A DNA stretch of 64,000 nucleotides. Source: Sinohyriopsis cumingii (Eukaryota; Mollusca; Bivalvia; Unionida; Unionidae). Positions within the stretch are counted from its first letter, which is position 1; every line of letters starts with the position of its first letter. The notes beneath the pieces are model-generated. The model ran no database searches. It saw nothing but the letters and a program-made list of their open reading frames with translations, and had not been told where the DNA came from. Shown piece by piece: positions 5,735 through 27,972 of the stretch. The stretch is from assembly GCA_028554795.2 (NCBI GenBank), contig CM068832.1:84673049-84737048 (forward strand). Reading direction: 5' to 3'. The translations under genes and the position numbers were made by a program.

Positions 5735-5775
5735 CTATCTCTTTTCGAGAGAAGTGGGTGGCCCTGAAAAGGGCC
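5735..5775 (-). terminator. Histone-type mRNA 3' end, stem-loop A (E1)
   Basis: Minus strand: GGCCCTTTTCAGGGCC (5760-5775) is a perfect 6-bp stem with a 4-base loop and fits the histone stem-loop consensus GGYYYTTYTNARRRCC. It is preceded by an A-run and followed by ACCCA, then a purine-rich TCTCGAAAAGAGATA stretch where U7 snRNP would pair. It starts 22 bases after the stop of the 185-aa gene, a normal histone mRNA distance. The 5509-5734 stretch to its left shows no gene. Confidence 0.85.
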
Positions 5776-5796
5776 TTTTTTGGTGTAGGGGTGAGT

Positions 5797-6354
5797 TTAA
5801 GCAATCAACTTTAACTGCCTTAAGCCTTTGCCACGGCCGAGGCCTACTTCTGATGATGATGATTGGGTTGAAATCACTAAGGGTGGTACGATAGGCTTAG
5901 TCACAGGGTTGGCGTGTTTAGCTCGGGAAGGTCGTGTTCTCTTCGGTCGTGATAAAGAAGTCTGATACATTTGTTTCAGACTTCTTAACTCCGCTAAAAT
6001 GTCCAACAGTACCGTGGCCGTTTGATTTTCACCCTCTTGTTTCTTTGCTGCTGCTTCTTCTTGTTGTTGTTGTTTTCTTACCTCTTCTTGTTGCTGTTGC
6101 TGTTGCTGTAGGAGAAAAGCTTGTTCCGCTTCCTTTTGTCGTTGCATAAATTTCTCCAATTCTTCTTTCTGTCTCTGTCTAAAATTCTCCACTTGCGGTA
6201 ATTAAGAATGAGACGAAGGTTCTGGAACAAATTCTTGCGAGGTAAGAAAATCCACAAAATCCCAATGCACCTCTTCTGAAAGTAAGTCCGGGTTCCCTTG
6301 GGCGGTCTCCACTGCTGATGCACCCCAATGGATCGTTTTCTGAGTTTCCGTCAT
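5797..6354 (-). pseudogene. Q-rich coiled-coil gene (E1), private nonsense mutation
   Basis: Same gene as the intact 185-aa copy at 26950-27507. Here TCA has become TAA at 6202-6204, leaving about 50 codons before the stop. Another difference is Thr for Ile in the basic C-terminal segment. Confidence 0.8.
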
Positions 6355-6573
6355 GTTGAATCACTGTCGCATATATTGACAGCACACAGGCGCTAGCGAA
6401 TCTATATAGACCACATGACGTCACAGACTGCTCTCTTCGGATTGGATGCGGACTGACTGAATTTTGTAACGCGTGTTCGGATTGGTGAATGAACTCAATC
6501 CGTTTCAATCCTTCCTCTACCTATAAATAAGCGCAGTTCACTGCATTGATTCACCTGTTCTCGTCGCCTCACG
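6355..6573. promoter_or_regulatory. Histone-pair-like divergent promoter of the 185-aa (-) and 76-aa (+) genes
   Basis: Plus side: TATAAATA (6522-6529) lies 45 bases before the 76-aa ATG at 6574. Minus side: CTATATAG (6402-6409) lies about 48 bases before the 185-aa ATG at 6354. Between them lie a perfect CRE/ATF palindrome TGACGTCA (6416-6423) and two ATTGG (inverted CCAAT) boxes at 6441 and 6481, each in TTCGGATTGG. This set of motifs resembles metazoan H2A/H2B divergent promoters. It recurs at 27508-27726 and 48654-48872. Confidence 0.65.
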
Positions 6574-6804
6574 ATGTGGACCACAGTTGAATCATCCACC
6601 CTTGTGTCTTCAATGATGTTTAGGACGGACATGCTCATGTATGTCCGGTCCAAGTGGACTGTTGTTGATAGGACAGATACTAGTCTATGGATGAGAAGAG
6701 TTTACATAGAAAGACAAGGATGCCTCCAGAGGGTACTTGTGTATGGACCTGCAGTTAGAAGGAGTTTAAGAAGAAGAAGATGTGACAGATGCCGTCTATG
6801 TTAA
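6574..6804 (+). CDS. 76-aa Arg-rich protein with histone-type 3' end (E1)
   Basis: ATG 6574 follows a TATA box at normal distance. The stop at 6802-6804 lies 24 bases before histone stem-loop B. The protein has Met/Thr/Val-rich and Trp-containing parts and ends in a strongly basic, cysteine-bearing tail (RRSLRRRRCDRCRLC). I recognise no family. The tail suggests DNA or RNA binding, loosely like a protamine, but it has no histone fold. It is identical in all three copies. Promoter, short ORF and 3' signal together make it a credible gene; the function is unknown. Confidence 0.6.
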   Translation: MWTTVESSTLVSSMMFRTDMLMYVRSKWTVVDRTDTSLWMRRVYIERQGCLQRVLVYGPAVRRSLRRRRCDRCRLC

Positions 6805-6819
6805 TATTAATATTAACAT

Positions 6820-7332
6820 AAACCCAAAGGTCCTTTTCAGGGCCACCCATATTTCTCGAAAAGAGATAGCCTTTCGATTGCCTACCCCTTTTTAATTTTT
6901 TTTAACAAAAAATCCCATGTTCAATTCCCCTTGTCCCTAAAGTAGTTTTTTTTTTCTTTTCTAACATGTTCAATTCCCCTTTGTCCCTAGACAAACCCAA
7001 ACTCGATTCCCATGTTCAATTCCCCTTGTCCCTAGACAGACCCAAACTCTATTCCCCATGTTCAATTGCCTTTGTCCCTAGAATCGATATTTTTTTTTTC
7101 CATTGTTCGAATGCCTTTGTCGCTAAAATCAATATTTCCTTTTTTTTCCTTTCTCCAATGTTAAATTCCATTGTCGCTAATCTTACCCAGGGTTTTTTGC
7201 CCATGTTAAATTTCCATTGTCGCTAATCTTACCCAGGGTGGTTAATGTTAAATTTCCATTGTCGCTAATCTTACCCAGGGGGTGTTTTTAATGCTAATTC
7301 CCATTGTCGCTAATCTCACCCCATTCACTACT
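6820..7332. repeat. Right terminal inverted repeat of E1, with 45-bp minisatellite
   Basis: Inverted and nearly identical to the left TIR (10772-10986), but about 300 bases longer. From 6917 to the end it holds about nine degenerate units of about 45 bp. They grade from TTCAATTCCCCTTGTCCCTA on the inner side to AAATTTCCATTGTCGCTAATC on the outer side; the left TIR keeps only about three. It ends CACTACT, the complement of the AGTAGTG start of the left TIR. Confidence 0.92.
6829..6867 (+). terminator. Histone-type mRNA 3' end, stem-loop B, inside right TIR (E1)
   Basis: CCAAA, then GGTCCTTTTCAGGGCC (6829-6844; one G-U pair), then ACCCA, then TCTCGAAAAGAGATA (6853-6867). Flanks and loop match the histone mRNA consensus. 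It serves the 76-aa gene. Confidence 0.85.
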
Positions 7333-7338
7333 GTTGAC
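7333..7338. repeat. Target site duplication GTTGAC, right end of E1
   Basis: GTTGAC directly follows the element end CACTACT. The same six bases directly precede every left TIR. Six-base duplications and AG...CT ends are typical of Polinton integration. Confidence 0.88.
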
Positions 7339-9022
7339 ATATTGGCAAAGGCTGACTCCAAGTTAACATCACTAAAACTATTTTCTGATCTTTTGTCACT
7401 GACACTGTCATCAAAACATCTAAGTAATTCAGAGAAGATGAGCATTTTGAACAGAGAGCTTCGGAGGCATAACAAAAACAAAGAAAGAAGATTAAATAGA
7501 AAAGTGCATACATAATTTTAGTGGATTGATTGGCTCTCCCCAGTGCTGTTTACTATTTGCACGGACAGTAACTTATTTGACAGAGGACTCAAGTTCGTTA
7601 AGTCTCAAGAGAAGATGTATTCTGTAAATATCAGTGAGTTAAAGAATGAAATATTCATATCTCTGGCATTTCTCTTTTGTCATGACATGGTAATGAAGAG
7701 TATTTATCAGCTGAAACCATTCCCAAGTCTAGCAACAAATTATTCATGGAACTTGCTTCTTACCTGCATATTTCAAAAGAGAAGGCAGACATGACATTAC
7801 TGAGAGAGGCTTATGAAAATTTGGGGGTGGGGGATGTACATTGAGAAATCAATTTTAAATGAAATCGTTAAAGGGGTTTCAGTTAAAAGATCCTTCTTCT
7901 GGTTCTCTCATGCTACAGTCTGTGAGGCAGTAGGACAGGTCTTAGCAAAACATTCTTTAGAGATGGTTGTAAAACATGGAGACACAGAATATTTATATCA
8001 GAGGACCTACACTGCAGAAGTCAAGAACAAAACTTCAGAGAATGTGTTTTGACCAGTGTCTATGCATTCACCTTTGGCAGAGCGAATGGTTCATGATGTT
8101 GTAGAGAAAACACTTGTAAAGAGTACTGCAAAACATTCAGTTCTCCAGCAGAACCAGTTTTTGATGAAACTGAAAGATGAGTTGCACAAAGGTAATAGGA
8201 TCAATGACTTTTTCATGGATAACTCAGAATACTTTTGGTAGAACTTATAAGAAGGACAGTGTACCACATTTTTGCAGCATGCAGTACAAAGTGATGAAGA
8301 TACAGTCAAATCAGTGTACAGTACAGTAAATGGAATTCTTGACATGCACACATAATAATAAGTGCTCAGGCTGTTGGCAGTGTAAAGAGAAGCAGAAACT
8401 TCTGAAATTAGCTCTCTAATACCACCATTTTGAGATTGCAGACAAACTAATTACCTTGAATGCCTGTTATACACATGTAAGTCTCTCTAATGCTGCCAGA
8501 CATGGTGACCTCAGTAGAGTTCAGACTATCATGGAGTATTCAAAAGAGGAATCAGGTTTTCAATCCAGAAGGTATTAAGGTAAAAAAGGCATTATGTGTA
8601 GCCTATATATCAGGAAGCCGGCATGTAATAGAGATTTTATTACAAGAAGGTATCACGCTAGATAACATACATGTAGTAGATGATGTACATATGGAGATAT
8701 CAATATTTTTATGAAGGTAGTGGGACATCTGAAATCTCGTAATAAGTGGCATCCACACTGGGAACATGATAGCAAATGTGGGTATTTCTTCCATCTTTAT
8801 ATGTATTTAAATCAGTTTGCTAAAGTTGGATTTGCTTCTTATCAACCTCCATGTTCCACAGCACTTTACATGGCCTCTTGTAATGAGAAGTTTGATGTGG
8901 CAGATTATCTCCTGCAAAATGAAGCAAAAGTGTCAATGGACATGCTTGCAGGGGTGACAGAACATAGTTCAAAGGTAGCTGTTGGTAAAGTGATACAACA
9001 TTTAAAAGTCAGTTGTATCTGA
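7339..9022 (+). pseudogene. Host STAND NTPase/ankyrin gene, part downstream of the insertion (spacer 1)
   Basis: From 7339 the frame ILAKADSKLTSLKLFSDLL continues, in phase across one GTTGAC, the P-loop exon that ends at 10771 in the same spacer. Further pieces in several frames: MELASYLHISKEKADMTLLR (about 7747), HATVCEAVGQVLAKHSLEMV with YLYQRTYTAEVKNKTSENVF (about 7908-8049), and ankyrin-like segments around 8490-9022 (ALYMASCNEKFDVADYLLQ). Such proteins are cytoplasmic NTPases, abundant in molluscs and thought to serve innate immunity. Many stops and frame changes show a pseudogene. Assignment to the nSTAND3 group is by recognition only. Confidence 0.75.
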
Positions 9023-9649
9023 GATCCCCATTGTGATGATGTTTCTAATGTATTAGGAAGAGCTTCTGGGGCACAAACGTATGATGTGTGTGATATGCTG
9101 GTTCAGGAGAAGTCTCAATGACAGTGAAAAATCTACATTGTGTGGTGGGGAGAATTCATATATCATTGAATGTAACATATTTTGCTTAGTGACACTGGAA
9201 GTTTCACCTTAAAATTTGATATGAAGCAACAGAAACTTCACATAAAAGAGGTTGTTAAATGAGCAGAAAAGTACGTCAGTCATACATGGAGAAGAACTTT
9301 TGGAATATCTCCTTTATGTAGATGTATGTTATCAATGGCAGAACATACTGACATGATAAAATAATTAGCATGGAATCAATGGACAGTTATTCTCTTTTAC
9401 TGACAAAAAAGAATGCTGCTTCCATGATGGATACCTGAGATGAATTCAAAATTTAAAGAATACGGCAAATTACAAATAATTAATCACGACTGCTGAACAT
9501 TAAAGTAACTTTTACACGGCCAGAGTCATTTTGCATAACTTCTTCACCTCATGTTTTGATATGTATTAGGATGACAAAATTATTGATTCATTAATATAAT
9601 GATTAAACACTTCACAAATATTATTTATTACTAATACAATGTAAGTCCG

Positions 9650-9692
<43 letters not shown>

Positions 9693-10397
9693 GTTTGTTG
9701 ATAGTAATACTAGTACAGGGCTTTACAGATTTCTAGACAATACACAGACAACTATTAATGTAGTTAGATTGTATTTGACATACACTTTGGATTGTAAATA
9801 CACTTAATATCTTAGAATGCCTTGGGGATTTTTTGATAGATTTACAGCATTTTTTATTTGCATACTTTAGTGTTTGAATATTATTCTGTCCATTCATCCA
9901 TATGCCCACCACCACAATTTCTAAATTGCTGTTTGGAAATGAATCAAACATGGTTGCTTGTGTCATGACTGTCTGCAATATTGGGTATAATTTTGTTCCT
10001 CCCCCGGTCATCCTTGGGAGGTTGTTAAAGATCAAGGTTTAAAACAGTATGGTGCCATTTTTTAATAATTTGTACCAATGTTGTACATGCATTTATAGGA
10101 GGAAGATTCTTGATGCAGCGAAAACTTTATAAGAGGGTCACTGAGGGATAAAGCCTTCTGTAATATATAAGTGGCTGGTATATTGAGATTAATTTTATAT
10201 GAAATTTATTATATTGGGTCTTGGAAGGACTCTGGATTGCGACTCTTGGGTCACGATTTAAAGATGGAGTTAGTGTTGTGGGAGATAAAAATTTCATAAA
10301 AAGATCAGAGATTGCTCTAAGGGTTTTTTTTTTTTTTGTTCTAAAGAAGACCTTGATACGCGTTTCTCTTTCTTTCTGTTTTTTTTTCCCCACCTAG
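9023..10397. other. Host non-coding stretch (intron/intergenic) with TC microsatellite (spacer 1)
   Basis: AT-rich sequence with no supported gene. It holds (TC)18 at 9653-9688 and, at its right end, a polypyrimidine tract followed by CCTAG, a good 3' splice site before the P-loop exon. The breakpoint of the tandem duplication should lie here, because 3' parts of the STAND gene are followed by its 5' part. Counterparts are 30175-31540 with (TC)14 and 51321-52688 with (TC)15. Confidence 0.6.
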
Positions 10398-10771
10398 GTC
10401 AGACAGAGGATAAGTTTGATACAGTTAGAAGACTAGGATGCATTCAAACAACACAGGCTGCAGAAGCTAAGAAACTGCATGAGGAGAAAAGGTATATTGT
10501 CATCAAAGGAAATCCAGGAAAAGGAAAGGCAATAATAGCCTTTGATATGATAGATACTGAAATGTATAGAGATAGGCATGTAGTGGTATAGAGTCCGAGT
10601 GATTGGAAGACAGTGGACACAGATTGGGTAGATATTGTTGTGCTGGAGGGCATACTAGGAAAATGTGACTTTGACCCTAGCTATCTGCAAGAGTGGATGG
10701 TATACCTACCTACCATACAGGAACATGTAGATGCAGGAAAGTTACGGGTCATAATTACCACCCGAGTTGAC
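10398..10771 (+). pseudogene. Host STAND NTPase P-loop exon, interrupted by the Polinton (spacer 1)
   Basis: The exon starts after the CCTAG splice acceptor and stays in one frame up to the insertion. Walker A reads GNPGKGKA, with Ala where the catalytic Thr/Ser is expected. After an in-frame TAG (10589-10591) come VDIVVLEGILGKCDFDPSYL and PTIQEHVDAGKLRVIITTR, typical of mollusc STAND NTPases. The element enters just after ACCCGAGTTGAC. The changed Walker A and the TAG suggest it was already decaying or decayed later. Confidence 0.75.
10766..10771. repeat. Target site duplication GTTGAC, left end of E2
   Basis: It directly precedes the AGTAGTG terminus. Its partner is at 28485-28490. Confidence 0.88.
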
Positions 10772-10986
10772 AGTAGTGAATGGGGTGAGATTAGCGACAA
10801 TGGGAATTAGCATTAAAAACACCCCCTGGGTAAGATTAGCGACAATGGAAATTTAACACTACTTTAGGGACAAGGGGAATTGAACATGGGATCTTTTTAA
10901 AAAAAAAAATTAAAAAAGGGGTAGGCAATCGAAAGGCTATCTCTTTTCGAGAAATGTGGGTGGCCCTGAAAAGGGCCTTTGGGTTT
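10772..10986. repeat. Left terminal inverted repeat of E2
   Basis: Inverted match to the right TIR, with about three of the 45-bp units instead of nine. It includes the whole histone-type stem-loop C at its inner end. Confidence 0.92.
10939..10977 (-). terminator. Histone-type mRNA 3' end, stem-loop C, inside left TIR (E2)
   Basis: Minus strand: CCAAA, GGCCCTTTTCAGGGCC (10962-10977), ACCCA, then the purine-rich TCTCGAAAAGAGATA stretch. The match to the histone consensus, flanks included, is perfect. It lies downstream of coiled-coil gene C, 21 bases after a TAG at 10999-11001 that closes the neighbouring frame. Confidence 0.85.
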
Positions 10987-11039
10987 CTTCTTCTTCTTCT
11001 AACTCCTCCACTTCTTCCACCAAGTCCTCACTTTTTCCA

Positions 11040-11582
11040 TTATTCCTTTCTTCTTCTTTTTCTCCTCTGGCATCCAGTCTGGATGGCCCAAGGCTCTAAA
11101 CTTTTTTCCTGGACTTTGATCCAATTCTGATTTAGCCTTTCAAAATCAGCCTGTTTCTTTTTGTTTTCCTGATCTTTTCTTTCTTTATTCCATCTCTCTT
11201 TAATCTTCTTTACCTCTACCTCCATCACTTTTCTCATAAACTCCTCTCCTTTCCTCAGTCTGTCCTGACCTCTCTCCACAAAAGAGCACTCTGTCCCATG
11301 TGACATATTTTCAAGAAAGCACCTGACTTTGCTTGCATTGTCAAGTGCTTCCTTTAGGCTTCCCACTCTGACATAGGTGGGATTTATCATACCTCTCAGT
11401 CTCTTTTCCTCCTCTTCTATCATTTCTGCTATCACTTCTTTTGCTACGTTTAGGCATTTAGCGTAGTCCAGATACTCTGCTATCTTCCATTCTTTTTCTA
11501 GTCTCTCCACTACATAGATACCATCCATTATCCAATTGTATATATGTACCAAATTGTTGAACAACTCACTTGCAACCACCAT
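11040..11582 (-). CDS. Coiled-coil gene C, about 180 aa, histone-type 3' end (E2)
   Basis: The start is taken at ATG 11580-11582, since a TATA-like CTATAAG at about 11632-11642 would put transcription start below the earlier ATG (11618). From there the N-terminus (VASELFNNLVHIYNWIMDGI) lines up with the first helices of genes D and E. The rest is a Lys/Glu-rich coiled coil with conserved-looking Cys, and the frame closes in a basic tail at 11040. A neighbouring frame, entered near the six-T run at about 11102-11107, stays open to the TAG at 10999, giving normal histone-like spacing to stem-loop C. The true end may therefore lie there, with a frame slip. No known family; function unknown. E2 has Asp where E3 and E4 have Glu in GQ(D/E)RLRKG. 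Confidence 0.6.
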   Translation of the reverse strand: MVVASELFNNLVHIYNWIMDGIYVVERLEKEWKIAEYLDYAKCLNVAKEVIAEMIEEEEKRLRGMINPTYVRVGSLKEALDNASKVRCFLENMSHGTECSFVERGQDRLRKGEEFMRKVMEVEVKKIKERWNKERKDQENKKKQADFERLNQNWIKVQEKSLEPWAIQTGCQRRKRRRKE

Positions 11583-11645
11583 CTTCGTTTTTATTATTCC
11601 GTAGAATGGTTCGAGCATCAAACCTTGTGGGTTCTTATAGTTCAA

Positions 11646-11740
11646 GTACGGATGTGAAGGAAAACATCCCCTAAAAACATAAAATTGATCTTACCTAGAT
11701 CATGACCAAACAACGCGCGGACGTGAAGGAAAACATCCCC
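11646..11740 (-). promoter_or_regulatory. Two copies of a shared promoter box upstream of gene C (E2)
   Basis: Minus-strand box GATGTTTTCCTTCACGTCC plus GYRC occurs at 11646-11671 (one variant base) next to the TATA-like sequence of gene C, and again at 11715-11740. The same box sits directly upstream of genes D and E. Counterparts are 32789-32883 (E3) and 53937-54031 (E4). Confidence 0.65.
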
Positions 11741-11775
11741 CTACTCTTCTCATTTCATATAATATACTATCCACA

Positions 11776-12110
11776 TAAGTGAAGCAACAATAAACAAACC
11801 CCAAATCTACTATTTACACACGCAAATCATTAAAAGAAAATCCATAATCTACTATCCACACAGCCGTACGTGAGCGGTTACAAAACCCAAACTATACTCT
11901 CCACATACGCTAAGAAACAATAAACAAACCCCAAATCTACTATTTACACACGCAAATCATTAAAACAAAATCCATAATCTACTATCCACACAATCGTACG
12001 TGAGCGGTTACAAAACCCAAACTATACTCTCCACATACGCTAAGAAACAATAAACAAACCCATAATCTACTATTCACACAAACTTACGTGAGCGGTTACA
12101 AACACATACA
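11776..12110. repeat. 130-bp tandem repeat, about 2.5 units (E2)
   Basis: ACAATAAACAAACC recurs at about 11788, 11918 and 12048, exactly 130 bases apart. Each unit contains CTACTATTTACACACGCAAA and GTACGTGAGCGGTTACAAAA; the third is shortened. It lies between gene C's promoter boxes and the 3' flank of gene D. No ORF. Counterparts start near 32919 and 54067. Confidence 0.8.
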
Positions 12111-12183
12111 CTCGCACTATGAAAAATAGAGTCAGTGTTTATATTCACACTACTCTACCTACACACATTGGCAAATTGATGGT

Positions 12184-12223
12184 TATTTCTTTTCTAGAGT
12201 ATTGGGTAGCCCTGAAAAGGGTT
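12184..12223 (-). terminator. Histone-like mRNA 3' end, stem-loop D, imperfect (E2)
   Basis: Minus strand AACCCTTTTCAGGGCT (12208-12223), followed by ACCCA and a purine-rich TCTAGAAAAGAAATA. The loop is canonical, but the second stem pair is A-C, so it is weaker than A-C and E. It lies downstream of coiled-coil gene D. Confidence 0.65.
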
Positions 12224-12398
12224 GTTTTTTGGAACTTCATGGACACCTGGTTAATGATGGCACCTTCCAGGCCTGGCGCCACATACGCATCTTGTTCTCC
12301 AGTTGCTTTTTACTTTTTTTGGGAGAGAGCAGAGGGAGGATAAATAGCTTCAGAGTCCCAATTTTCTGTCTCTGGGATTCTCAAATTTCTTCTCTCCT

Positions 12399-12629
12399 TT
12401 ACTCCTCTTCTTTGTTTCTTCTCTCCTCCTCCTCTTCTTTGTATCTTCTCTCCGCCTCTTCTTTGTATCTTCTCTCCTCCTCTTCTTTGTTTCTTCCCTC
12501 CTCCTCTTTCATCCTTCCCTCTTCCACAATGGCTTCCGCGGCCAGTTCGTTCAACAGGCGCCTGGCATAATCCAGATGCACATGAAGTTCCAACAGTTTC
12601 GCTAGTCTGGTGTTCATTCTGGTGTTCAT
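12399..12629 (-). CDS. Coiled-coil gene D, 76 aa in the open frame (E2)
   Basis: ATG 12627-12629 follows TATAAATT (12667-12674) and a promoter box (12681-12706). The first helix (RLAKLLELHVHLDYARRLL) resembles gene E. Then come repeated KEEEERR blocks that form a highly charged helix. This frame stops at 12399, but a neighbouring frame through the same GA-rich repeat stays open to 12310 with ordinary composition (ENWDSEAIYPPSALSQKK), so a frame slip within the repeat is likely. Paralogue of gene E with similar flanks. Function unknown. Confidence 0.55.
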   Translation of the reverse strand: MNTRMNTRLAKLLELHVHLDYARRLLNELAAEAIVEEGRMKEEEGRNKEEEERRYKEEAERRYKEEEEERRNKEEE

Positions 12630-12666
12630 CAATCAACAAGGGTAGCTGGACTGCCGAACGAGTTTC

Positions 12667-12706
12667 AATTTATACTAAAAGTGCGGACGTGAAGGAAAAC
12701 ATCCCC
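12667..12706 (-). promoter_or_regulatory. TATA box and shared promoter box of gene D (E2)
   Basis: Box GATGTTTTCCTTCACGTCC at 12681-12706 is followed within 10 bases by TATAAATT (12667-12674), 38 bases before the ATG. Counterparts of the box are 33824-33849 and 54972-54997. Confidence 0.65.
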
Positions 12707-13052
12707 CTAAAAACATAAAACTGATCTTACCTAGATCATGACCAAACAACGCGCGGACCTAAAAGAAACACTCACTCACTTTTTTATACTACCCATTCCT
12801 ATTCTAAAAATTTTTTTCATTAATCACTTCAATATACTATTCACATACGCAAAGCAATCCAATCAAACCCCCAAATGTACTCTCCCCACACCTCAAACAG
12901 CCCCAAAAAACATGATCTTAATCTACTATCCACACCAACGTACGTGAGATGTTACAAACACAAACACACAAACACATACACTCGCACTATTAAAAAAAGA
13001 GTTAGTGTTTATATTCACCCTACTCTACCTACACACATTGGCAAATTGATGG

Positions 13053-13093
13053 TTATTTCTTTTCTAGAGTATTGGGTAGCTCTGAAAAGAGCT
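13053..13093 (-). terminator. Histone-type mRNA 3' end, stem-loop E (E2)
   Basis: Minus strand AGCTCTTTTCAGAGCT (13078-13093), a perfect stem with the TTTC loop, then ACCCA and TCTAGAAAAGAAATA. It serves coiled-coil gene E. The flanking 170 bases are a diverged copy of those around stem-loop D. Confidence 0.8.
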
Positions 13094-13299
13094 GGTTTTT
13101 TTTTTGTTTTTTTTTTTTTGTTTGCTATGGCAATCTTTTAGTTTCTAAGAATGCGATGTCCTCTGAGGATAGACTTTCTGGCGATAGGTCTGCTTCTTCG
13201 GAAAGAGAAGAAGAACTCTTTGGTGTCGATACGACAATCGACAAAGCCTCTGTCAGGTTAAGGTTGCTGCTGCTGCTGCTGCTGTTGCTGTTGTTGTTG

Positions 13300-13509
13300 C
13301 TATTGCTGCTGCTGTCTCTGAAGTCTGTACTTCTCTGTCCATTCTTCTTTCTCCCTGTTCACTTCTTCTCTGAAGAGCTCTTCTATCAGGTCTTCAGTAA
13401 CTTTTAACATTCTCACATTCTCTATCTCTTCTGGCTTCGGTATCAGACTGTGTCTGACCCTATGCAAATTCACGTAGGCTTCGTTTAGCTTAGCTAGTTT
13501 GGAGCACAT
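13300..13509 (-). CDS. Coiled-coil/poly-Q gene E, 69 aa in the open frame (E2)
   Basis: The first ATG is 13507-13509. The N-terminus KLAKLNEAYVNLHRVRHSL matches gene D's first helix, then comes a charged coiled coil. The frame stops at a TAG inside a CAG/CAA tract (poly-Q, about 13264-13317). A neighbouring frame beyond the tract stays open to a TAG at 13125-13127 with Ser/Glu-rich sequence, 31 bases before stem-loop E. So the original gene probably ran through the repeat and a repeat-length change broke its frame. A TATA-like TTTAAG and promoter box (13575-13600) precede it. Function unknown. Confidence 0.55.
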   Translation of the reverse strand: MCSKLAKLNEAYVNLHRVRHSLIPKPEEIENVRMLKVTEDLIEELFREEVNREKEEWTEKYRLQRQQQQ

Positions 13510-13574
13510 CTTCGTAGGAGGATGAGTCGACAATGGATGGTTAGACTGGAAACAACCCGGTTCTTAAAGTCAAA

Positions 13575-13600
13575 GCGCGGACGTGAAGGAAAACATCCCT
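13575..13600 (-). promoter_or_regulatory. Shared promoter box of gene E (E2)
   Basis: GATGTTTTCCTTCACGTCC with CGCGC, immediately upstream of TTTAAGAACC. Counterparts are 34718-34743 and 55867-55892. Confidence 0.6.
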
Positions 13601-13969
13601 CTACGGTTTTCGAGCCGCAACGTTCAATGAGTGTCATGAGAGGGATAGTAAGAAGTCAAAGAGCATAAATCAACATTCTTATAGCCAAACAAACCACAAA
13701 GGCATTTTTTTCAAAACACAACATTTTTTATTCAAAATCACTTAATATTAACCAACAACTCTAACATTTTTTTAACAATAATCCAACAATATAACATCAA
13801 ACATTTTTTTCAAATCTCAAACATTTTTTTTCAATTTACACTCTACTTTAAACAGGGTTGGCAAAGTTGTGAATGAAATTGTGATTTCCACTGTTGCAAG
13901 TCATTGAGTCATGGATGGACACTACGTTTCCTAGCTGAAGACAACAAAATAAGCATACTAGTCACAAAA
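13601..13969. other. Gene-free stretch with A/T runs and poly(A) signal (E2)
   Basis: No ORF supported. Several AACATTTTTT/CAAACATTTTTT runs occur. TTTATT at 13727-13732 reads AATAAA on the minus strand and may be the poly(A) signal of the upstream capsid-block transcripts, which lack histone stem-loops. Counterparts start near 34744 and 55893. Confidence 0.45.
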
Positions 13970-14452
13970 TCAACGATTTACTTTCTCATCGTTTCTAGAA
14001 AAATCACGATCAAAATAAGTCACTAAATGTTCTTTTGCTGATAATAAGTGATCAATTTCGATCTCGACTTTCTCTTTGAATTTGTCAATGAGGGCTTTGA
14101 TGTAATGGATGTCTCGAGTCGTTAATGGAGGACAGAAATGTTCACGCAAGTCTTTATACCACCAACGTAACACGTCTTTTTTAAACAGACTCCAAGCTTC
14201 GTCCAGTTATTCGTTGAATTTTTCTTCTTGACTGATGTTTTGACATCCATAGTAATCATGCTTCATCCATATCGTAATTGTGTCTGCCAGGTATGTAGCA
14301 CAGTAGGAGACCAATTGCTGTTCTTGTTCTGGACATCTCGACTTGATCACGATGTCCTTTTCGTCTTTGTGTTGGGATTCTCCTTCCACGGTCTCCTCAC
14401 ATTCCATCTTCAAAGCTTCTCCACTAGGTAAAGAGGGAGAACAGTTTTCCAT
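13970..14452 (-). pseudogene. 160-aa acidic protein gene, private nonsense mutation (E2)
   Basis: Same as the intact copy at 35113-35595, but TAT is changed to TAA at 14207-14209, cutting the protein after 81 residues. Confidence 0.75.
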
Positions 14453-14457
14453 AGCTT

Positions 14458-15765
14458 CTAATAGTCTAGAATGACTTCTCTCAAACTGTTGATTTCTATC
14501 GTATTATCGAATTCTGCATACAGGATGACGTTCACTGTCTCTTTCAGTGGTTCTGTAAACTGAAGTTCCACACGAATCTGGCCGGATTTTATAGGGTGAA
14601 AATATCCCTCGTCGCTGCCTTGGTCTGGAGTGAAATCAAATGCCCACAAAGCATAACCTCCTGCATAATCCTCGTACGTAATGCCGTGACTGGTGTTGGT
14701 CCCTAACTGTCCGGTGGCTTCGTACAGGGACAAGTACGATCTCAAGTAATTCATCTTTGTGGGATCAAAGTCAGGTTCGAAAGGTCGGGTACACAAGGTC
14801 TTGCCGTCGCGACTGACTTCAATTTTCTTCACGTTGAAGTGATGAAAGTTGAAAGGATTTTTAGTGAAGGCTCCGTTGAAGGCTTTATTCTCGACCATAC
14901 CAAGGATTAAACGCTTGGGTAACTGTCCTTGAAATAGATGATCTTCGATCATGGATTGATGGTTAGCGGGAATGGTGAACGTTTTCACTTCCACGCGTCG
15001 TATGGGATACTTGGCGGTCGTTCTGCTCAACGTTTGACTGATGTCGTTTCCCACTTTAGGTAACACTTCCACGCGTCGTACGTAGAGTTTGGCCTCCTCG
15101 ATTTGGCTTTTGGGATTGCCAGCAGCAGTATCAGCCAACAAATGGAAAGCGGCACTGCTACGATTCAGTCTCAAGCGAACATTTACCCCGTTCAGCAAAT
15201 ATTTCTCTTGCAACCACATGTCCAAATGCAAACGATCCATCAGTTCTAAACTCTTCTTATTTAAGATTTTGCTTCGTCTTTCCACAAAGCCGTCATTGTC
15301 TTTATCTATTTCGTCAAACTCCTTCGCTTCGTCAGGTTCCCATAGCACACACGCATTGAGATGAGTATTCTTGGCATCTATTCCGTACGTCAAGAGATTT
15401 TCCAGGTAGGCACGATAAGGGTAAGTATCCATGCTGCTGCTGACCAGTTTGTTATTCAAGTACAAGTCCACTGAGCTGAACAAGGAATGCATGAAATTGT
15501 TGACGGGAGCTATATTCTCAGTGTCTTCTACTCCACCATCATCCTTATCTAGAACTTTGACTTTCAGGTACAAGTAACTGCTATTCAGATCGATGTAATC
15601 TTCGGGCTGTCCTTTGATTTCAAACTCGATAGGAGCGGAATCGGTCAATGAGGAGACGGGGTGAAATTCCACCCATTGGGATTCTTGCATGGTCATCATG
15701 GTGGGGGGCATGGCAAACAGATCCAGTTCCGACTTGGAACAGGCGCATGACTCTCGGTGCATCAT
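14458..15765 (-). CDS. MCP: Polinton major capsid protein, double jelly-roll (E2)
   Basis: A 435-aa protein from ATG 15763-15765; upstream codons to 15789 stay open but begin with TTG. The N-terminal segment ESQWVEFHPVSSLTDSAPIE and the first strands (DLNSSYLYLKVKV, NNFMHSLFSSVDLYLNNKLV) are the hallmark of the F54H12.2-like Polinton capsid family. YPYRAYLENLLTYG and the C-terminal LQFTEPLKETVNVILYAEFD also fit. Length is in the usual range. It would form the trimeric capsomers of an icosahedral shell. The stop lies 5 bases from the 160-aa gene start. It is open in all copies, unlike polymerase and integrase. A start at the later MPPTMMTMQ methionine is also possible. Confidence 0.93.
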   Translation of the reverse strand: MMHRESCACSKSELDLFAMPPTMMTMQESQWVEFHPVSSLTDSAPIEFEIKGQPEDYIDLNSSYLYLKVKVLDKDDGGVEDTENIAPVNNFMHSLFSSVDLYLNNKLVSSSMDTYPYRAYLENLLTYGIDAKNTHLNACVLWEPDEAKEFDEIDKDNDGFVERRSKILNKKSLELMDRLHLDMWLQEKYLLNGVNVRLRLNRSSAAFHLLADTAAGNPKSQIEEAKLYVRRVEVLPKVGNDISQTLSRTTAKYPIRRVEVKTFTIPANHQSMIEDHLFQGQLPKRLILGMVENKAFNGAFTKNPFNFHHFNVKKIEVSRDGKTLCTRPFEPDFDPTKMNYLRSYLSLYEATGQLGTNTSHGITYEDYAGGYALWAFDFTPDQGSDEGYFHPIKSGQIRVELQFTEPLKETVNVILYAEFDNTIEINSLREVILDY

Positions 15766-15785
15766 TTTTTTGTTGTTGCTGTTTC

Positions 15786-16211
15786 TCAATAATCGAAAAC
15801 GTCTAAGTCTCGAACGGTTCTTCTTTTCTTGGTCTTTCTAACTTTAGACGTGTGAAGTCTGGTAAAAGGGTGTTTTCTTCGTCGTCTCTTTCTGCCTTGT
15901 CCTTGCTGAATGCCTGACTCGGTAGCGTGCAGGGCATTTATAGGTGTGTCTCGTTGGCCCAAAAGGTCTTTACCCGTTTGTAGCAAGACATTTTTGCCTG
16001 CCCTTATGAAGGCTTCTTTGGGGTTTTGTTTGTCGATGATGAGATTTTGGAGAAATTCTTTGCCTTGCGTCAGTGCCGCATCTTTCAAGGCGTGCAATCC
16101 GCGTGTCACCATCGGTTTCAACACCGGAGCCACCGAACGAAAGGCCGATTTCAACATATCTCCTAAACCGTGTCCTCGCTGTCGAGCAACCCCTCGGTAC
16201 ACTGGATACAT
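15786..16211 (-). CDS. Small basic virion protein, 141 aa, pX/pVI-like (E2)
   Basis: ATG 16209-16211. The N-terminal region YRGVARQRGHGLGDMLKSAF has the Gly-rich, amphipathic look of Polinton/adintovirus proteins compared with adenovirus core or membrane-active proteins. A helix-rich middle is followed by a strongly basic stretch (GRKRRRRKHPF, RKTKKRR). It lies between major and minor capsid genes, so a role in the virion core is likely. The comparison rests on composition and position, not on a firm family match. Open and unchanged in all copies. Confidence 0.65.
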   Translation of the reverse strand: MYPVYRGVARQRGHGLGDMLKSAFRSVAPVLKPMVTRGLHALKDAALTQGKEFLQNLIIDKQNPKEAFIRAGKNVLLQTGKDLLGQRDTPINALHATESGIQQGQGRKRRRRKHPFTRLHTSKVRKTKKRRTVRDLDVFDY

Positions 16212-16214
16212 GAC

Positions 16215-17177
16215 TTACGAATCGTGAGAGAACCGTTTTCGAAATTGGAGTTTCACCGTGACTTTTCCTTTGGTGACTGGAATATTTTGTCCCAAATCTC
16301 CTTTTATAGCAATGTTGACCGTGTCCAAATACGACTTGCTGACAGGCAAATAATGAGGATGTACAAATTCGCGGTGGACGTGGTAAGTGTTTCCACCTTC
16401 CTCGTCAGTGGCCGTGGCAGAATTTACTTTGAAAGGAATGACACGCAGTAACGGCACGGAGGTGTGTCCCACCACGTTGTACTCCACCACATCGGAGTAC
16501 ACAAAGATCAAATTCAGTCCCTGGTTCAGTTCTACCGGGAAAAGAAAATACCTTGCAAAATGCCCGTTGTTGTCAATCTCTGCTTTCTCTATCTTTTTGG
16601 TCTTTTCGTCCGTGACCAAATTGAGGTCTCCACCCAAAATGTCATACAATTCAGGGCAAAATTTAATACGTATACTTTTTTCCTCACTTTCAAATTTGAT
16701 GAGGAGACGGTGAGACAGTTTGTGGTACTCAATGGTGACACGTTTTCTTAGTCCGGTCAGAACTTTGTCAAATGTTGCATAGAATTTGTCAGCGATGGCC
16801 TCCACCAGATGTTGACCACTAAAATAATGGCCTGAGTTAATTTTAAAGTGATAAACGTAAAAAGGAGGACAAGTGCCACTGCTGCTGCGGGGTAATGGGT
16901 CCTTCGCAAGAAATGATCTATGTTGAGGAGTGTTCGTCATGGTTTGCTGTACTGTTGGGTCCAGAATTTCGACGTCAAAAGTGTTTTGAGTTTCAGTGAT
17001 GTTTTTGATTTGTGTTGGGTGAATCATTTCTACCAAAGCCACTTCTCAATGGGCTTCGTGATCTAAGGGGATGGCCTGAGGTAATTTGGCCGTGTAACAG
17101 CACAACGTGTTGTGGGGAAACACCTCCATGGAACTGTCACTGGGTAAGGTTAAGTAAAATTGGTTTTGGTGACTCAT
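16215..17177 (-). pseudogene. mCP: Polinton minor capsid (penton) protein with in-frame TGA (E2)
   Basis: It would form the capsid vertices. ATG 17175-17177 begins YLTLPSDSSMEVFPHNTLCC, a typical penton N-terminus. TGA at 17046-17048 interrupts after 43 codons, followed in the same frame by VALVEMIHP and the rest: FYVYHFKINSGHYFS, a central domain, LIFVYSDVVEYNVVGHTSVP, HPHYLPVSKSYLDTVNI and VTKGKVTVKLQFRKRF. Only the 43-codon N-terminus is lost if translation starts inside. The stop is shared by all copies. The ATG overlaps the stop of the membrane protein gene (ATGA). E2 has Gln where E3 and E4 have His near the C-terminus. Confidence 0.88.
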
Positions 17178-17584
17178 AATTCCAGAGTTCTGTGGCTGTC
17201 CGAGGGGTTACTGGACGTCAGAGGCGTGTCTCCGCTCAAAATGGGGTTCTGGTTGTGGTTGGAGTGGTGACTGGCACTGGCACTGGACAAAAGGTTCCCG
17301 TGATTCCCGTTGGAAGAGAATTTCATGGAGAGATTGGAAAGCAGGTAACCGATGCAACTGCTCAATAAAATGGTCCACAATTGTTTGTCTCCTTGTTGCA
17401 AACTCAAATTGGCAATGGCTGCCCCGATGACACAATACACCACGAAGATTTGGCAGAAAAAGACGATTTGCGTTTTAGGCACACGTTCTCCGCACCACAC
17501 CCACAAGGGTTGTTTTTGTAAATCTTGCAGAGAAGAACTAGGTGAAGGAGTGGTCGACGTAGCTGCGTCTGTGTGAAAGGGCAT
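17174..17584 (-). CDS. Two-helix membrane protein of Polinton type, 136 aa (E2)
   Basis: ATG 17582-17584; the longer frame to 17632 has no ATG. After a Ser/Pro-rich start and WVWCGERVPKTQ come two hydrophobic helices, IVFFCQIFVVYCVIGAAIA and LWTILLSSCIGYLL, then a polar Ser/Asn/His-rich tail. The QIVFFCQ...NL...LW..LLSS.IGYLLP pattern is one I associate with a small conserved Polinton protein next to the penton gene. It probably acts in an internal or host membrane. Intact in all copies. Confidence 0.72.
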   Translation of the reverse strand: MPFHTDAATSTTPSPSSSLQDLQKQPLWVWCGERVPKTQIVFFCQIFVVYCVIGAAIANLSLQQGDKQLWTILLSSCIGYLLSNLSMKFSSNGNHGNLLSSASASHHSNHNQNPILSGDTPLTSSNPSDSHRTLEL

Positions 17585-17589
17585 GATGG

Positions 17590-18700
17590 TCACTTCTTTA
17601 TATAGTCGATGACTTGCGAAGCGTCGATCCAAGAATCAAAACTGGGTGGATATCCTTTCCAACGTACTTGGACTTCTTTGACACGTCGTTTGCCCACTTT
17701 ACGGGTTCTGCGTTCGAGAATGCTTTCGATGTCGTACACGTCGTCTTCGTTTTTGGTCACACGTTGTAACTCGGGCAAATAAAACGTTCCTTTGAGCACT
17801 TCTCCGTTCATGTCTTCCAATTTATAGACGGCAGGATGACGGCCATGCACTCGTCCAGTGACACGAAACAATTCGGTTGTCCAGTTAGGTAAGTAACCTT
17901 TGTCGAAAGTGCGTTTGGTTTTGCCAATGCGCACCCAATCTCCTACGGCCAACTCTCCACTTTTTTTGGGGACAGCCCTCGTCGGGGACGTACCAAACAG
18001 GCGCTCAAACACCAACACTTCGTTCTCGGGAGTCACGTCTTGCGGGGCACGTCCGATGCTTCGATGGTAAGATTGGTTGTACGCTTGCACCAGGTGTGGT
18101 AAGATGTCGATGTACTTCAGAGTGTGGTGATGCGTAAAATATTTCCACATGCGTTCTTTCAAAGTGCGTTGAAAACGTTCCACGATGCTGGCTTTGGTTT
18201 CGGGATTCTCGGTGGTAAAAAAAATGAATGTCACGTTTCTTTAATTCTTTTTGGAAAGCGTGGTTCAGAAATTCGGTGCCTTTGTCCGTTTGCCATCGAA
18301 GAGGGTGACGGCCACTTTGTTTCAACACTCGTTGCAGGGCTCGCACTAACTCGCTGCTCGATTTGGAAGTCAAGGGCACGACCCAGGCAAATTTGGAAAA
18401 GACGTCGATGACACAAAACAAATATTTGTAGCCACGATTGTAGCTGGCCAAATGAGAGACATCGGCTAAATCGGCTTGCCATTGATGATCGATGCCTTCC
18501 ACTCGGGTGCGACTTCTGGCAAACTTGCGTCGAATGGGTTTGTGTAAAGTGTAGGTAGCTTGTTCTTGTAACCATCGTTGCACTTGAGGTAAACGGAGAC
18601 TTTTCAATCGAGTTTTGGCAGCACGATACAATTTTTGAACTCCTGCGTAACCTGCAGGATGAGAGGGATCGTAGTAAATGCTGACTAAGACTTTTTCCAT
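17590..18700 (-). pseudogene. INT: Retrovirus-like integrase with chromodomain, frameshifted (E2)
   Basis: It would insert the element and make the 6-bp target duplication. ATG 18698-18700 begins the Polinton-type N-terminus (YYDPSHPAGYAGVQKLYRAA). The DDE core has D in WQADLADVS, D in WQTDKGTEF and E in ASIVERFQRTLK. The C-terminal chromodomain (VYDIESILERR...VQVRWKGYPPSFDSWI) may steer insertion to modified chromatin. The frame is broken between the second D and the E, at an eight-A run on the plus strand (18217-18224). The break is the same length in all copies. All three catalytic residues survive but lie in two frames. Confidence 0.93.
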
Positions 18701-18719
18701 TTTTTTGTTTGTTTGTGTG

Positions 18720-19343
18720 TTAATAAGACACCCACTCTTGGAGGATGCTACTCTTTTTCTTTTGGGGTACTTTCTTGGATTGCAATGCTTTGCGTGTGCG
18801 ACCGGCAATAGGTGTTGAAGAGGAGGAAGTCTGAGCGGGGGATATCGGTTCTTGTTTCACTTCTGTCTTCACTTTCTTGTTCTCTTGTGATGAAGAAGGG
18901 GTGGCCATCATCTTTTTAATCCATCCAATTCTGGAGGTAGGTGGTGTTGTTAACTTGCGTACTTTTTCTGGTGGAGTTTGAAACCCTTCTTCTTCTTCTC
19001 CTTTTTCTGTCTTGGTCACTGGTAGTGGTGGTACTGATACTGGTACTGGTGATGGTGCTGGACTTTTCATCAAGGTCTTAAAATCTTTCAGAGTGGGTAG
19101 AGCTGTTTCGTCTAAAGCTTTCTGGTGAAAGAGTTGCAGTCGTTGCAAGAGTTGACCGTACTTTTGCGATTTTTATGTTTTGGACAAATCTTGGCGATCC
19201 ATTAAGGACTGCAATTCGTGTTGTAACTGGGACATCTCGCTCAAATGGGGATTGGGAGGTAAATGCGGGGTGCGTTGTTCTTGCCACCGATGGTATTCCA
19301 TCCATCGTTTGTAAGGCACTAAAGCTAGTTTTCGTCCTTCCAT
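18720..19343 (-). pseudogene. Polinton-type protein starting KLALVPYKRW, in-frame TAA (E2)
   Basis: ATG 19341-19343 gives MEGRKLALVPYKRWMEYHRW, resembling a conserved small Polinton protein of unknown function. An in-frame TAA at 19173-19175 (all copies) stops it after 55 codons. The same frame then runs open for about 150 more codons: a helical part (LLQRLQLFHQKALDETALPT), Pro/Ser/Thr-rich linkers and a basic C-terminus (KKVPQKKKSSILQEWVSY). The position between integrase and the 104-aa gene, together with the charge, suggests a virion or DNA-associated protein. Confidence 0.6.
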
Positions 19344-19392
19344 GGGGTTGTCAGGGGTCGATTCTGAGATCTTGGGACTTCCGAGGGCCTTT

Positions 19393-19707
19393 TTATCTTG
19401 CTCCCACCAGTCCTCCCAACATGGTTCCCAAGACTCCTTTCAGTAAGGGACCTAACAAGAGGGGTAAAATGCCTCCACGTTGGACCAATATCTTCTTCTT
19501 TTGACGAATGGGAATTTTCTTTTGAACCATTTGGCGAAGAACGTGACGATGTTTACCTAAGCATTGTTTCTGGTGTTTGGACAAAGGGATCGTGCCTTTC
19601 AAGACGTTCAAACGGCATTCGCACACGGTATCGATGACCTCTTTGGAGGCCGATTGAATGAGTTTTTTTCGTAGGGGTGGAGAAGCTTTGCACAGGACAG
19701 ATAACAT
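19393..19707 (-). CDS. 104-aa Polinton-type protein with hydrophobic Gly/Leu tail (E2)
   Basis: The first ATG is 19705-19707 (MLSVLCKASPPLRKKLIQSA). The pattern of a Cys/Lys helix region, KKKILVQRGGILPLLLG and a C-terminal Gly/Leu-rich segment resembles a small protein common in Polintons, sometimes likened to adenovirus pX/pVI membrane-active peptides. The frame stays open about 35 codons upstream without an ATG (KKRKGLPPRLVKHGD), so the natural start may have been lost. Intact in all copies. Confidence 0.65.
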   Translation of the reverse strand: MLSVLCKASPPLRKKLIQSASKEVIDTVCECRLNVLKGTIPLSKHQKQCLGKHRHVLRQMVQKKIPIRQKKKILVQRGGILPLLLGPLLKGVLGTMLGGLVGAR

Positions 19708-19831
19708 GTCCCCATGTTTAACTAAACGAGGAGGCAGACCTTTTCTTTTCTTTCCTTGGGGCTGTTTAGAAGAGGGATGTTTTCTGGAGGGTGATATCTT
19801 TGAGTCTTCAGCACCAAAAACACTGATACCC

Positions 19832-20755
19832 CTACTTGGTCACAGACCTTTTGTATACTGGAACGCGTCGCCACTGATTGTCTTTACGTCGTATCAGTTT
19901 GAGGACAGGCATGACACGTCGTGCAGGGGTACGTAACGGACTAAATCGAGCCAGTTCTTGCTTGGACAAACCCAGTAAACTTTGTAACATGCCCGATCTT
20001 TCTTGGACTTTGATTTTGGGAGAAGGTACTTTGTGAGCAGCAGCCACTGCCACTAAATTGGAGGGTCCTGCCACTGGGGAAGTTCTTTTTGGGGTCATCA
20101 ACGGAGATGTTCTTGGTGTGATCAACGTCTCCAAGTACTCTTCAGTTCTTGGTGTCATCAACGGAGAAGTGGATGAACGTGAGGCTGCCGGAGACGCAGT
20201 CACCGCCGTGGCAGGTCGTGGTTTGCGAGTGTAAAGTTGCGTCCTGGCCGAAGAAGTGCCTCTCTTGCGACTAGTTTTCTTCTGTGGACTTTTCTTTTTC
20301 TGGGGGCTTCTTTTCTTTTTCCGGGGTGGTGGTGTCTGGTAAGGGGAGGGTCCCGCCACTGGAGAAGTTCTCCTTGGGGACCTGGTCTTTTTCTTCGTCT
20401 TGGAGCTTCGATTGACTTTTTTCTTGGGGAGAATTTGGGGGCATTAGGATCCCGTCTTAAGAGAGAGCGAATGATGACCCCTCCTAGAGTACCGCTTCCT
20501 CCAGGTTTCAAAATGATTTGTTTTTTGGTTTGAGTGTCGATGCGGGGATCGGCCAGTTGGACCAAAGCGACTTTGTTTCGATCAAAAAAGAGTTTGGTTT
20601 GATGAGGAATCTAAATGATCCCTTGGAGTAATTCACGTGCCGTCACCGTGAACCATCGTAAGACTTCTTTGAGACTAGCTTCTAAGACACGAGCTCGTAT
20701 TTGTGGATTTTTTTCTCGACTGATGCCATACAAGGCACGAATCAAGGGACGTCAT
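19832..20755 (-). pseudogene. Basic Polinton-type protein, broken by stop and frameshifts (E2)
   Basis: Three successive open stretches look like one gene. The N-terminal stretch (PLIRALYGISREKNPQIRAR) is out of phase with the only upstream ATG (20753-20755) and ends at TAG 20611-20613. The same frame continues with KPGGSGTLGGVIIRSLLRRD. After a six-T run (20417-20422) the neighbouring frame carries on with a long Lys/Ser/Pro/Thr-rich, very basic region holding repeated SPLMTP motifs, ending at 19832. The charge suggests DNA binding or a core protein. The lesions are the same in all copies. It could instead be two adjacent genes. Confidence 0.5.
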
Positions 20756-20792
20756 GTTCAAAATGTGTGAGACAGACGAAAAGGGTCTGAGG

Positions 20793-20800
20793 TTTTTATA
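20793..20800 (-). promoter_or_regulatory. TATA box of the basic-protein gene (E2)
   Basis: TATAAAAA on the minus strand lies 38 bases upstream of ATG 20755. Counterparts are 41936-41943 and 63085-63092. Confidence 0.45.
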
Positions 20801-20821
20801 GATTTTTTTTGTGGAGTGAAA

Positions 20822-21541
20822 TTAAGTCGAGGACGGAGACGTGTACAGGACAGGCCCTCCGTCTTGGTCCCAGTGGTGAAACAAGTGGGTACGAAATCGC
20901 AAATCCTCGGGGGTCGTAGGTTTCAAATCGACGAGTAAATACCCGTGTGGAGTTTGATTGGCATCGTCGTACGCCTGAGTCAGCCAAGGCGTTCCTAACT
21001 GTTTGGCTAAGACTTGCACTTGCGATTTATCTCGAGGTCTTTTAAACAAGACCACGTAATGTGCATTGAGACTGATGGTGCGATGGGCTTTACTTTGTTA
21101 AAACAAATTTTGGGTGATGTAAACGACACTGGCATTACGGTGATGCCCTTTGCGCGTGAACCACATTTTAATTTCTTCTTCGTCTTCTCCGTCAAAAATG
21201 ACCAAATGGGTTTGACGGGAGTCAGAGACGATGTCGTCGTCTTCTTTAGGAATGCCTTCCACAAACACGATGGAATCGCCTTGACTTTCTCGCCAGAGGC
21301 TGTACGCCGATTGCCACTCTTTGTAACACCACACGATCCGCTGAGGAGGTCGATCGACCAAATGATGTTTATGTTCGATCAAACGTTTGACGAATTCGGT
21401 TTTGCCTGAACCGCTAGGTCCAGCAATGAGCATGTTAAAGGGATGGCGAAGATACAAAGCCTCCCAACTGGCACGATCTAAGTGTTCGTCGATGACTTTG
21501 ACAGTAGAGGAAGAGGGAGCAGAGACAGCAGAGGTAACCAT
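20822..21541 (-). pseudogene. ATP: Polinton packaging ATPase (FtsK/HerA-type) with in-frame TAA (E2)
   Basis: It would pump the genome into the capsid. ATG 21541; LRHPFNMLIAGPSGSGKTEF holds Walker A (GPSGSGKT), followed by IVWCYKEWQSAY, FVEGIPKEDDD and Walker B (LVIFDGEDEE), then KGHHRNASVVYITQNLF. There TAA (21098-21100) interrupts. The same frame goes on with ISLNAHYVVLFKRPRDKSQ and HGYLLVDLKPTTPEDLRFRT to 20822. The family usually has DD at Walker B; here Gly follows the Asp. The TAA is shared by every copy. Total length (about 238 codons) is normal for the family. Confidence 0.92.
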
Positions 21542-21974: not shown

Positions 21975-22006
21975 CTTGTTCGCTCGGTCTTGGTAGTCAC
22001 AATGAA

Positions 22007-26080: not shown

Positions 26081-26215
26081 CTTGAGTGCAAAACGTCAAA
26101 TGACTCAAGTTTAAACACCATAGACTAATTTATAGTCATGGCAAACCAGCGTATATAAAAAGGGTGTGTGTCTTGTCCTTTCACTATTCATTTCACTCTC
26201 AAACCGAGCACAACG

Positions 26216-27957: not shown

Positions 27958-27972
27958 TATTAATATTAACAT

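Follow-up and report, generated by a model that had tools for sequence, protein, structure and literature searches.

A stem-loop at the end of the mRNA is a special signal of animal histone genes, and the U7 RNA of animals carries a UCUUU-type stretch. The pathway by which SLBP and U7 act on histone pre-mRNA is outlined in PMC9756948 and PMC1924863, and for the bivalve Lucina PMC6210712 describes histone mRNAs with stem-loops close to the stop codon. Here we describe signals of this type on a set of small genes in a Polinton of the bivalve Sinohyriopsis cumingii. The stretch of DNA analysed (64,000 nt, hereafter the window) is C9:84673049-84737048 of the 2.90-Gb host assembly. Window 1-64000 consists of three head-to-tail units of 21.15 kb that are mutually 99.9% alike, and each unit contains one 17.7-kb Polinton and ~3.4 kb of host-like sequence. 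Judged by their sequence, the cis elements of the gene set are histone-type and are kept across copies of an abundant Polinton lineage of this bivalve genome. We therefore consider it likely that the lineage runs its small terminal genes like replication-dependent histone genes, which would mean SLBP/U7 processing, mRNAs without poly(A) and expression in S phase.

Histone-type 3′ ends behind small Polinton genes

The five open reading frames (ORFs) of the set and the signals behind them are given below in window coordinates. Those of the two paralogue ORFs refer to the second copy.

26950..27507, minus strand: g185, a gene of 185 amino acids with relatives in other copies
26888..26933 (= 5735-5780), minus strand: Histone3 stem-loop and downstream element of g185, RF00032, 38.4 bits, E 1e-7
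27727..27957, plus strand: g76, a gene of 76 amino acids with an Arg-rich end
27977..28022 (= 6824-6869), plus strand: Histone3 stem-loop and downstream element of g76, RF00032, 35.1 bits, E 1.9e-6
11040..11618, minus strand: g192 ORF, start probably at the second Met, C-terminus of the family in another frame in this copy
10937..10982, minus strand: Histone3 stem-loop and downstream element of g192, RF00032, 42.5 bits, E 3.2e-9
33542..33772 (copy-2 coordinates), minus strand: g76b ORF, a shortened paralogue
12183..12228, minus strand: weak Histone3 stem-loop of g76b, RF00032, 20.7 bits, E 0.45, A.C mismatch at the second stem pair
34443..34652 (copy-2 coordinates), minus strand: g69 ORF, a shortened paralogue
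13053..13098, minus strand: Histone3 stem-loop of g69, RF00032, 30.6 bits, E 8.9e-5, first pair A-U

The original prediction, made from the letters of the window, placed five hairpins at 5760, 6829, 10962, 12208 and 13078, each behind a small ORF in the correct orientation. All five were found at these positions, and all are in the sense orientation (5/5). The covariance-model search that it proposed was run over the window with cmscan at E<=1 and returned 14 matches, every one of them RF00032 Histone3; the form tested was a six-pair stem with a four-letter UUUC/UUUU loop. The curated RF00032 cut-off (34 bits) is passed by three of the five sites per unit (10962 with 42.5, 5760 with 38.4 and 6829 with 35.1 bits), and the sites at 13078 (30.6 bits) and 12208 (20.7 bits) fall below it. 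The first stem pair is G-C at three sites and A-U at the remaining ones. The pattern GGYYCTTTTMAGRRCCACC has 9 matches in the window, versus 0.00 expected from shuffles. The hairpins had been said to occur in every copy, and they do recur in the other copies, except that the 13078-type site of the third copy (55369) has a broken stem pair and is absent from the 14 matches.

The predicted ACCCA and purine-rich element after each hairpin were also found: in an ungapped comparison of the five sites, all pairs of sites are alike by 69-100% in the stem-loop, 100% in ACCCA and 79-100% at positions +31 to +44, and GAAAAGA is present at 5/5 sites. On either side of this module, similarity is near background for genes that are unrelated in sequence, such as g185 and g69. 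The downstream element could form a second hairpin in g185, g76 and g192; this reading was rejected because the hairpin is lost in g76b and g69.

The distance from stop codon to hairpin, predicted as 22-24 nt, is near that range for the two genes concerned (21 nt for g185 and 24 nt for g76). In g192 the hairpin lies 62 nt past the stop of its own ORF and, in all three copies, 21 nt past the stop in the family frame; compared with 11 listed relatives, the C-terminal stretch of the family lies in another frame in the window copies. We note that these relatives (P0121, P0123-P0132) are all on contigs of <=2,018 bp, which would suit transcripts or ends truncated at repeats. The shortened ORFs of g76b and g69 end 175 and 206 nt before their hairpins, which are the two weakest. 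The set of five genes in the prediction is therefore better described as three good pairs of gene and hairpin together with two paralogues, g76b and g69, that look decayed. In the first copy, to which the prediction refers, the g185 ORF is shortened to 116 amino acids (window 5797-6147), versus 185 in copies 2 and 3.

The same arrangement was found at host histone genes. PF00125 gave 662 candidates in the host genome, and the 150 matches scored among these are mostly in tandem repeats ~8.27-8.29 kb apart. The comparison used short segments of a single repeat together with four 3′ ends located elsewhere, and the genes were named H3, H4 and H2B by the ends of their proteins. The host H3 end reads 28 nt, GGCCCTTTTTAGGGCC, ACACA, eight letters and GAAAAGAGCTA; the H2B end 34 nt, GGCCCTTTTCAGGGCC, ATACA, eight letters and GAAAAGATGTA; and the H4 end 27 nt, GGCCCTTTTTAGGGCC, ACAAA, eight letters and GAAAAGATAAT. 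All three share with the Polinton the 16-nt hairpin, the 5-nt spacer, the eight letters and GAAAAGA, which starts 13 nt past the hairpin in the three host genes and at 5/5 Polinton sites. RF00032 matched 6/6 host pieces, with 35.9 bits for H3 and 38.2 bits for H2B. The proposed identity of the signals as histone-type 3′ ends is supported by Rfam, by the comparison with host histone genes and by conservation among copies (see below).

The products of the set are not recognised as histones. There was no histone match in Pfam for g185 and g192, no PDB match for g76 and g192, and altogether no Pfam, PHROG or PDB match among the products tested. A g192 relative was modelled as an all-helical protein, a helical bundle, and the modelled family gave no significant structural match; the structure model of g76 was too poor for use (pLDDT 42.5). 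A histone fold of the products was therefore rejected as unsupported by the Pfam, PHROG, PDB and structure-match searches. With products that are no recognised histones, the set would work like replication-dependent histone genes without being a member of that class. No histone-type module was found within 400 nt of the capsid, integrase and polymerase genes.

Copies of the gene set and the Polinton that carries it

When the host assembly (2.9 Gb) was searched with RF00032, there were 589,472 first-look candidates, of which the top 75 were scored; all of these exceed the cut-off. Among 14 control genomes, one gave a match and none a match above the cut-off. All 75 loci contain a relative of at least one Polinton query protein (tblastn E<=1e-3), and the best Polinton stem-loop scores are 42.5 bits (window) and 45.6 bits (genome). 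Because the loci had been chosen for good hairpins, we counted gene matches whose stem-loop was not the one by which the locus had been fetched. Such a stem-loop lies behind 25/27 matches of g185, 21/22 of g76, 17/19 of g76b and 5/6 of g69; the matches without one are g185 in L046 and L033, g76 in L057, g76b in L068 and L026, and g69 in L047. For g192 a stem-loop lies behind 16/16 matches, of which 15 are the selected ones. Seen from the other side, 137 of the 159 stem-loops in these loci sit <=420 nt behind a same-strand relative of the set genes.

Conservation was measured on distinct copies (25 of g185, 21 of g76, 17 of g76b and 5 of g69). The hairpin is conserved by 98-100%, the 5-mer at the cleavage site by 88-98% and the downstream element by 87-97%, versus 47-76% at -60..-21 and 53-78% at +61..+120. 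These observations weigh on the alternative of a single capture of a histone 3′ end, followed by passive copying (hitch-hiking, or gene conversion between copies) with no present function. Copying between sites would fit the near identity of the g185 and terminal-repeat modules, and passive copies would fit the damage to the window copy and the weakening of two of the five hairpins. Against it, hairpin and downstream element are conserved by 87-100% and the flanks by 47-78%, the module stands behind unrelated genes, and some stem changes are paired. We regard passive copying as unlikely, and as the least unlikely of the alternatives that we weighed.

The prediction also raised the absence of such hairpins from other Polintons of related hosts. 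They are present in other Polinton copies of this one host, and two distant Polinton fragments from bacterial metagenome-assembled genomes, L001 and L002, have no Histone3 match at E<=1 and no H2B-type motif (see below) at <=3 mismatches. The two are no fair negative, because L001 ends 1.3 kb after the capsid gene and L002 is broken up. L001 comes from the genome of a tubeworm endosymbiont and L002 from a Breoghania bin, and both are most likely host DNA binned with bacteria. In a viral contig collection (viral_contigs), stem-loop patterns were found in 1 contig by one pattern search and in 3 by another. One of these, L003, was rejected because its site scores 21.3 bits, below the cut-off, and lies within a long ORF; the contig is phage-like. 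L004-L006 were rejected for lack of a Histone3 match at E<=1. No relatives turned up when viral_contigs was scanned for capsid and integrase; as this collection probably contains few Polintons, its negatives say little about them.

The carrier is a Polinton, as had been predicted. Its structural features are as follows:

10772..28484, no strand: complete Polinton of 17,713 bp with inverted termini AGTAGTGAATGG..., GTTGAC duplication and PolB, integrase, chromodomain and ATPase domains
31915-49630, no strand: second complete copy with AGTAGTGAATGG... termini and GTTGAC duplication
10772..10986, plus strand: left terminal inverted repeat, from blastn of both termini, with the g192 hairpin in its inner end
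27973..28484, minus strand: right terminal inverted repeat, from blastn of both termini, with the g76 hairpin in its inner end

The 6-bp target duplication GTTGAC is at both flanks. The terminal repeats, compared by blastn of the copy-2 left end with the right end at 28484, are 94-99% alike across the aligned parts, and the right one has more internal tandem repeats, including at window 6880-7332 a row of degenerate ~45-bp units, GTCGCTAATCTTACCC... and TTCAATTCCCCTTGTCCCTA... The DNA_pol_B_2 domain of a protein-primed type B DNA polymerase matched at E 1.5e-33, the integrase at E 8e-15 (rve) and 1.1e-7 (Chromo) over two overlapping ORFs, and a Pox_A32-like packaging ATPase at E 1.3e-5; no Pfam match to a maturation protease was found among 20 ORFs scanned. 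The capsid protein has 1815 related proteins at E<=1e-3; the best 120 are 44-84% identical to it, and those named are from the bivalves Mercenaria, Ostrea, Saccostrea and Crassostrea and one metagenome-assembled genome of a bacterial symbiont. The PolB and integrase genes are in pieces in all three window copies, so this insertion is damaged.

Next to the capsid gene there is a basic protein of 141 amino acids (window 36929-37354, minus strand) that resembles the ORF at the same position in L001 (8745-9203) and presumably adenovirus-type core proteins. The insertion seems to break a host gene at window 7333-10771 (and 28485-31914), which by eye would be of the NACHT/ankyrin type. The three tandem units of Polinton and 3.4 kb of host-like DNA may reflect a segmental duplication with the same insertion or an effect of assembly.

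Candidate promoters of the set

Beyond the 3′ signals to which the original prediction was confined, candidate histone-type promoter motifs were found at the other end of some set genes, of the H2B type for g192, g76b and g69 and also of the H4 type for g76b:

11649..11668, minus strand: H2B-type promoter motif upstream of g192, 1 mismatch
11718..11737, minus strand: second H2B-type promoter motif upstream of g192
12684..12703, minus strand: H2B-type promoter motif upstream of g76b
13578..13597, minus strand: H2B-type promoter motif upstream of g69
12750..12768, minus strand: H4-type promoter motif TTTCTTTTAGGTCCGCGCG upstream of g76b, exact
27508..27726, no strand: divergent g185/g76 promoter with a TATA box on each side, two CCAAT boxes and TGACGTCA

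The region upstream of host H2B contains GATGTTTTCCATCACGTCCGCGCT. The Polinton shares 23/24 of these letters upstream of g69, and it has shorter stretches of them at two places before g192 and also before g76b. At <=3 mismatches the H2B-type motif has 12 matches in the window, versus 0.01 expected. In the fetched loci it has 64 matches, in 24 of the 75, including 33 of the main Polinton form and 15 of the host form over 20 letters; shuffled motifs gave 0 matches (20 shuffles, 15 loci). A TATA-like box lies 9 nt past the motif in 40/64, and none was seen in 21; in the host H2B gene the TATA box is farther from the motif than in the Polinton. The promoter of host H4 contains TTTCTTTTAGGTCCGCGCGTT, and 21/21 of its letters are found upstream of g76b in all three window copies. 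The 19-letter H4-type form at <=3 mismatches has 29 matches in 21/75 loci, 10 of them exact and some of those with 3 mismatches being the H2B-type motif, and its shuffled versions gave 2 matches (ten shuffles, 15 loci). A blastn-short search of five host histone pieces against the window found the 3′ ends, the H2B- and H4-type motifs and one 16-letter match, and nothing else; that match, between host H3 coding sequence and window 17579-17594 (and copies), is taken as chance. A string that resembles a 5′ splice site, CATGATCTAGGTAAGATCA, occurs within window 32792-33900, minus strand, both in the interval that separates the two H2B-type motifs of g192 and past the H4-type motif of g76b.

The divergent g185/g76 promoter is kept in distinct copies, with the g76 TATA box in 47/48, the g185 TATA box in 42/48, both CCAAT boxes in 47/48 and TGACGTCA in 44/48. 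The host H3 promoter likewise has two CCAAT boxes. This likeness is weak because such boxes are common, and CCAAT and TATA boxes, the only such elements here, are weak evidence for a histone-type g185/g76 promoter.

Proposed mechanism, alternatives and related systems

We propose that host SLBP would bind the Polinton stem-loop, that the U7 small nuclear ribonucleoprotein would pair with GAAAAGA, and that the histone cleavage complex would cut after ACCCA, leaving mRNAs without a poly(A) tail. The making and decay of these mRNAs would follow S phase, when the replication supplies of the host could serve an element that has its own PolB. Processing and S-phase timing are what we infer from the cis elements, and the signals suggest that the element couples the expression of this set to DNA replication. 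As the capsid, integrase and polymerase genes are without such signals, we place g185, g76 and g192 as probably early or replication-linked genes. It is moderately probable, from promoter motifs and 3′ ends together, that the terminal set is under the whole histone programme of the host, that is, made at histone locus bodies, cut through SLBP and U7, free of poly(A) and expressed only during replication.

Several points weigh against histone-like regulation of the set. Only the top 75 of 589,472 candidates in the genome were scored, and 22 of the 159 stem-loops in the fetched loci follow no recognised set gene within 420 nt. The stem-loop finder requires a hairpin, so the conservation of hairpin and 5-mer is partly forced; the downstream element was unfiltered. 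Copies of g76 often have AGCCA instead of ACCCA. Covariation in the stem is modest (six sequences; the score is reached in 10/500 shuffles and both-side pair changes in 92/500). TATA boxes also precede several other genes, and the Polinton copy in the window is itself damaged. Finally, AATAAA or ATTAAA within 400 nt is missing from 19/21 ORFs and present in 2, and is thus no distinction of this set; we dropped the absence of poly(A) signals as an argument for that reason.

Only slightly less plausible than passive copying, and also unlikely, is that the stem-loops act as a sponge or decoy for SLBP and U7, lowering the supply of histones so that viral DNA is less packed. A sponge would suit the large number of copies in the genome (589,472 candidates, 75 of them scored) and their scores, which are at least as high as those of the host histone ends, but each hairpin closes a gene with its own promoter, which is beyond the needs of a decoy. 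It is very improbable that the hairpin serves SLBP-dependent translation or export only, with a polyadenylated mRNA 3′ end farther downstream. Histone genes of C. elegans do keep poly(A) signals beside the hairpin, according to PMC1924863, but no AATAAA or ATTAAA lies within 400 nt downstream of the five genes, and the conserved downstream element is needed for cutting through U7 rather than for translation. We give just as little credit to the idea that the hairpins serve the terminal repeats as DNA elements (an origin, integrase or packaging site) and are like histone ends only incidentally. Two of the five are in the inner ends of these inverted repeats, but three are elsewhere; all are in sense behind genes and have the same spacer, downstream element and offset as host histone genes, and some set genes carry histone-type promoter motifs at their other end.

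Histone-like regulation of the terminal set thus remains our preferred reading. If it is true, it shows a way for a mobile element to tie itself to the S phase of its host, and RNA-seq with poly(A) selection would miss these viral genes. To our knowledge, this would then be the first virus or transposon known to use the whole histone programme. Among the best-ranked open-licence literature, no title or abstract describes histone-type 3′ ends in Polintons, viruses or transposable elements, and a term search in the related-virus surveys PMC11071296 and PMC11071308 found no text on stem-loops or polyadenylation.

With host histone genes, the Polinton has the same 3′ arrangement, a short stop-to-hairpin gap (21-24 nt in g185 and g76, 27-34 nt in host histone genes) and the H2B- and H4-type promoter motifs in common. 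It differs in the 5-mer (ACCCA versus ACACA, ATACA or ACAAA), and unlike host histone genes its genes are located in a mobile element and encode no recognised histones. With Polinton/Maverick elements, including adintoviruses, it shares PolB, the integrase with chromodomain, the ATPase, capsid relatives, inverted repeats and the 6-bp duplication, whereas histone-type 3′ ends and candidate histone-type promoters on terminal genes were found neither in the literature searched nor in the covered parts of the two distant Polintons. The small adomaviruses and tailtomaviruses have a histone-like protein, 'Histoid', according to PMC11071296, and on that account are, like this Polinton, animal DNA viruses that borrow from the histone world. 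In those viruses it is a protein that is histone-like, whereas in this Polinton it would be the regulation.

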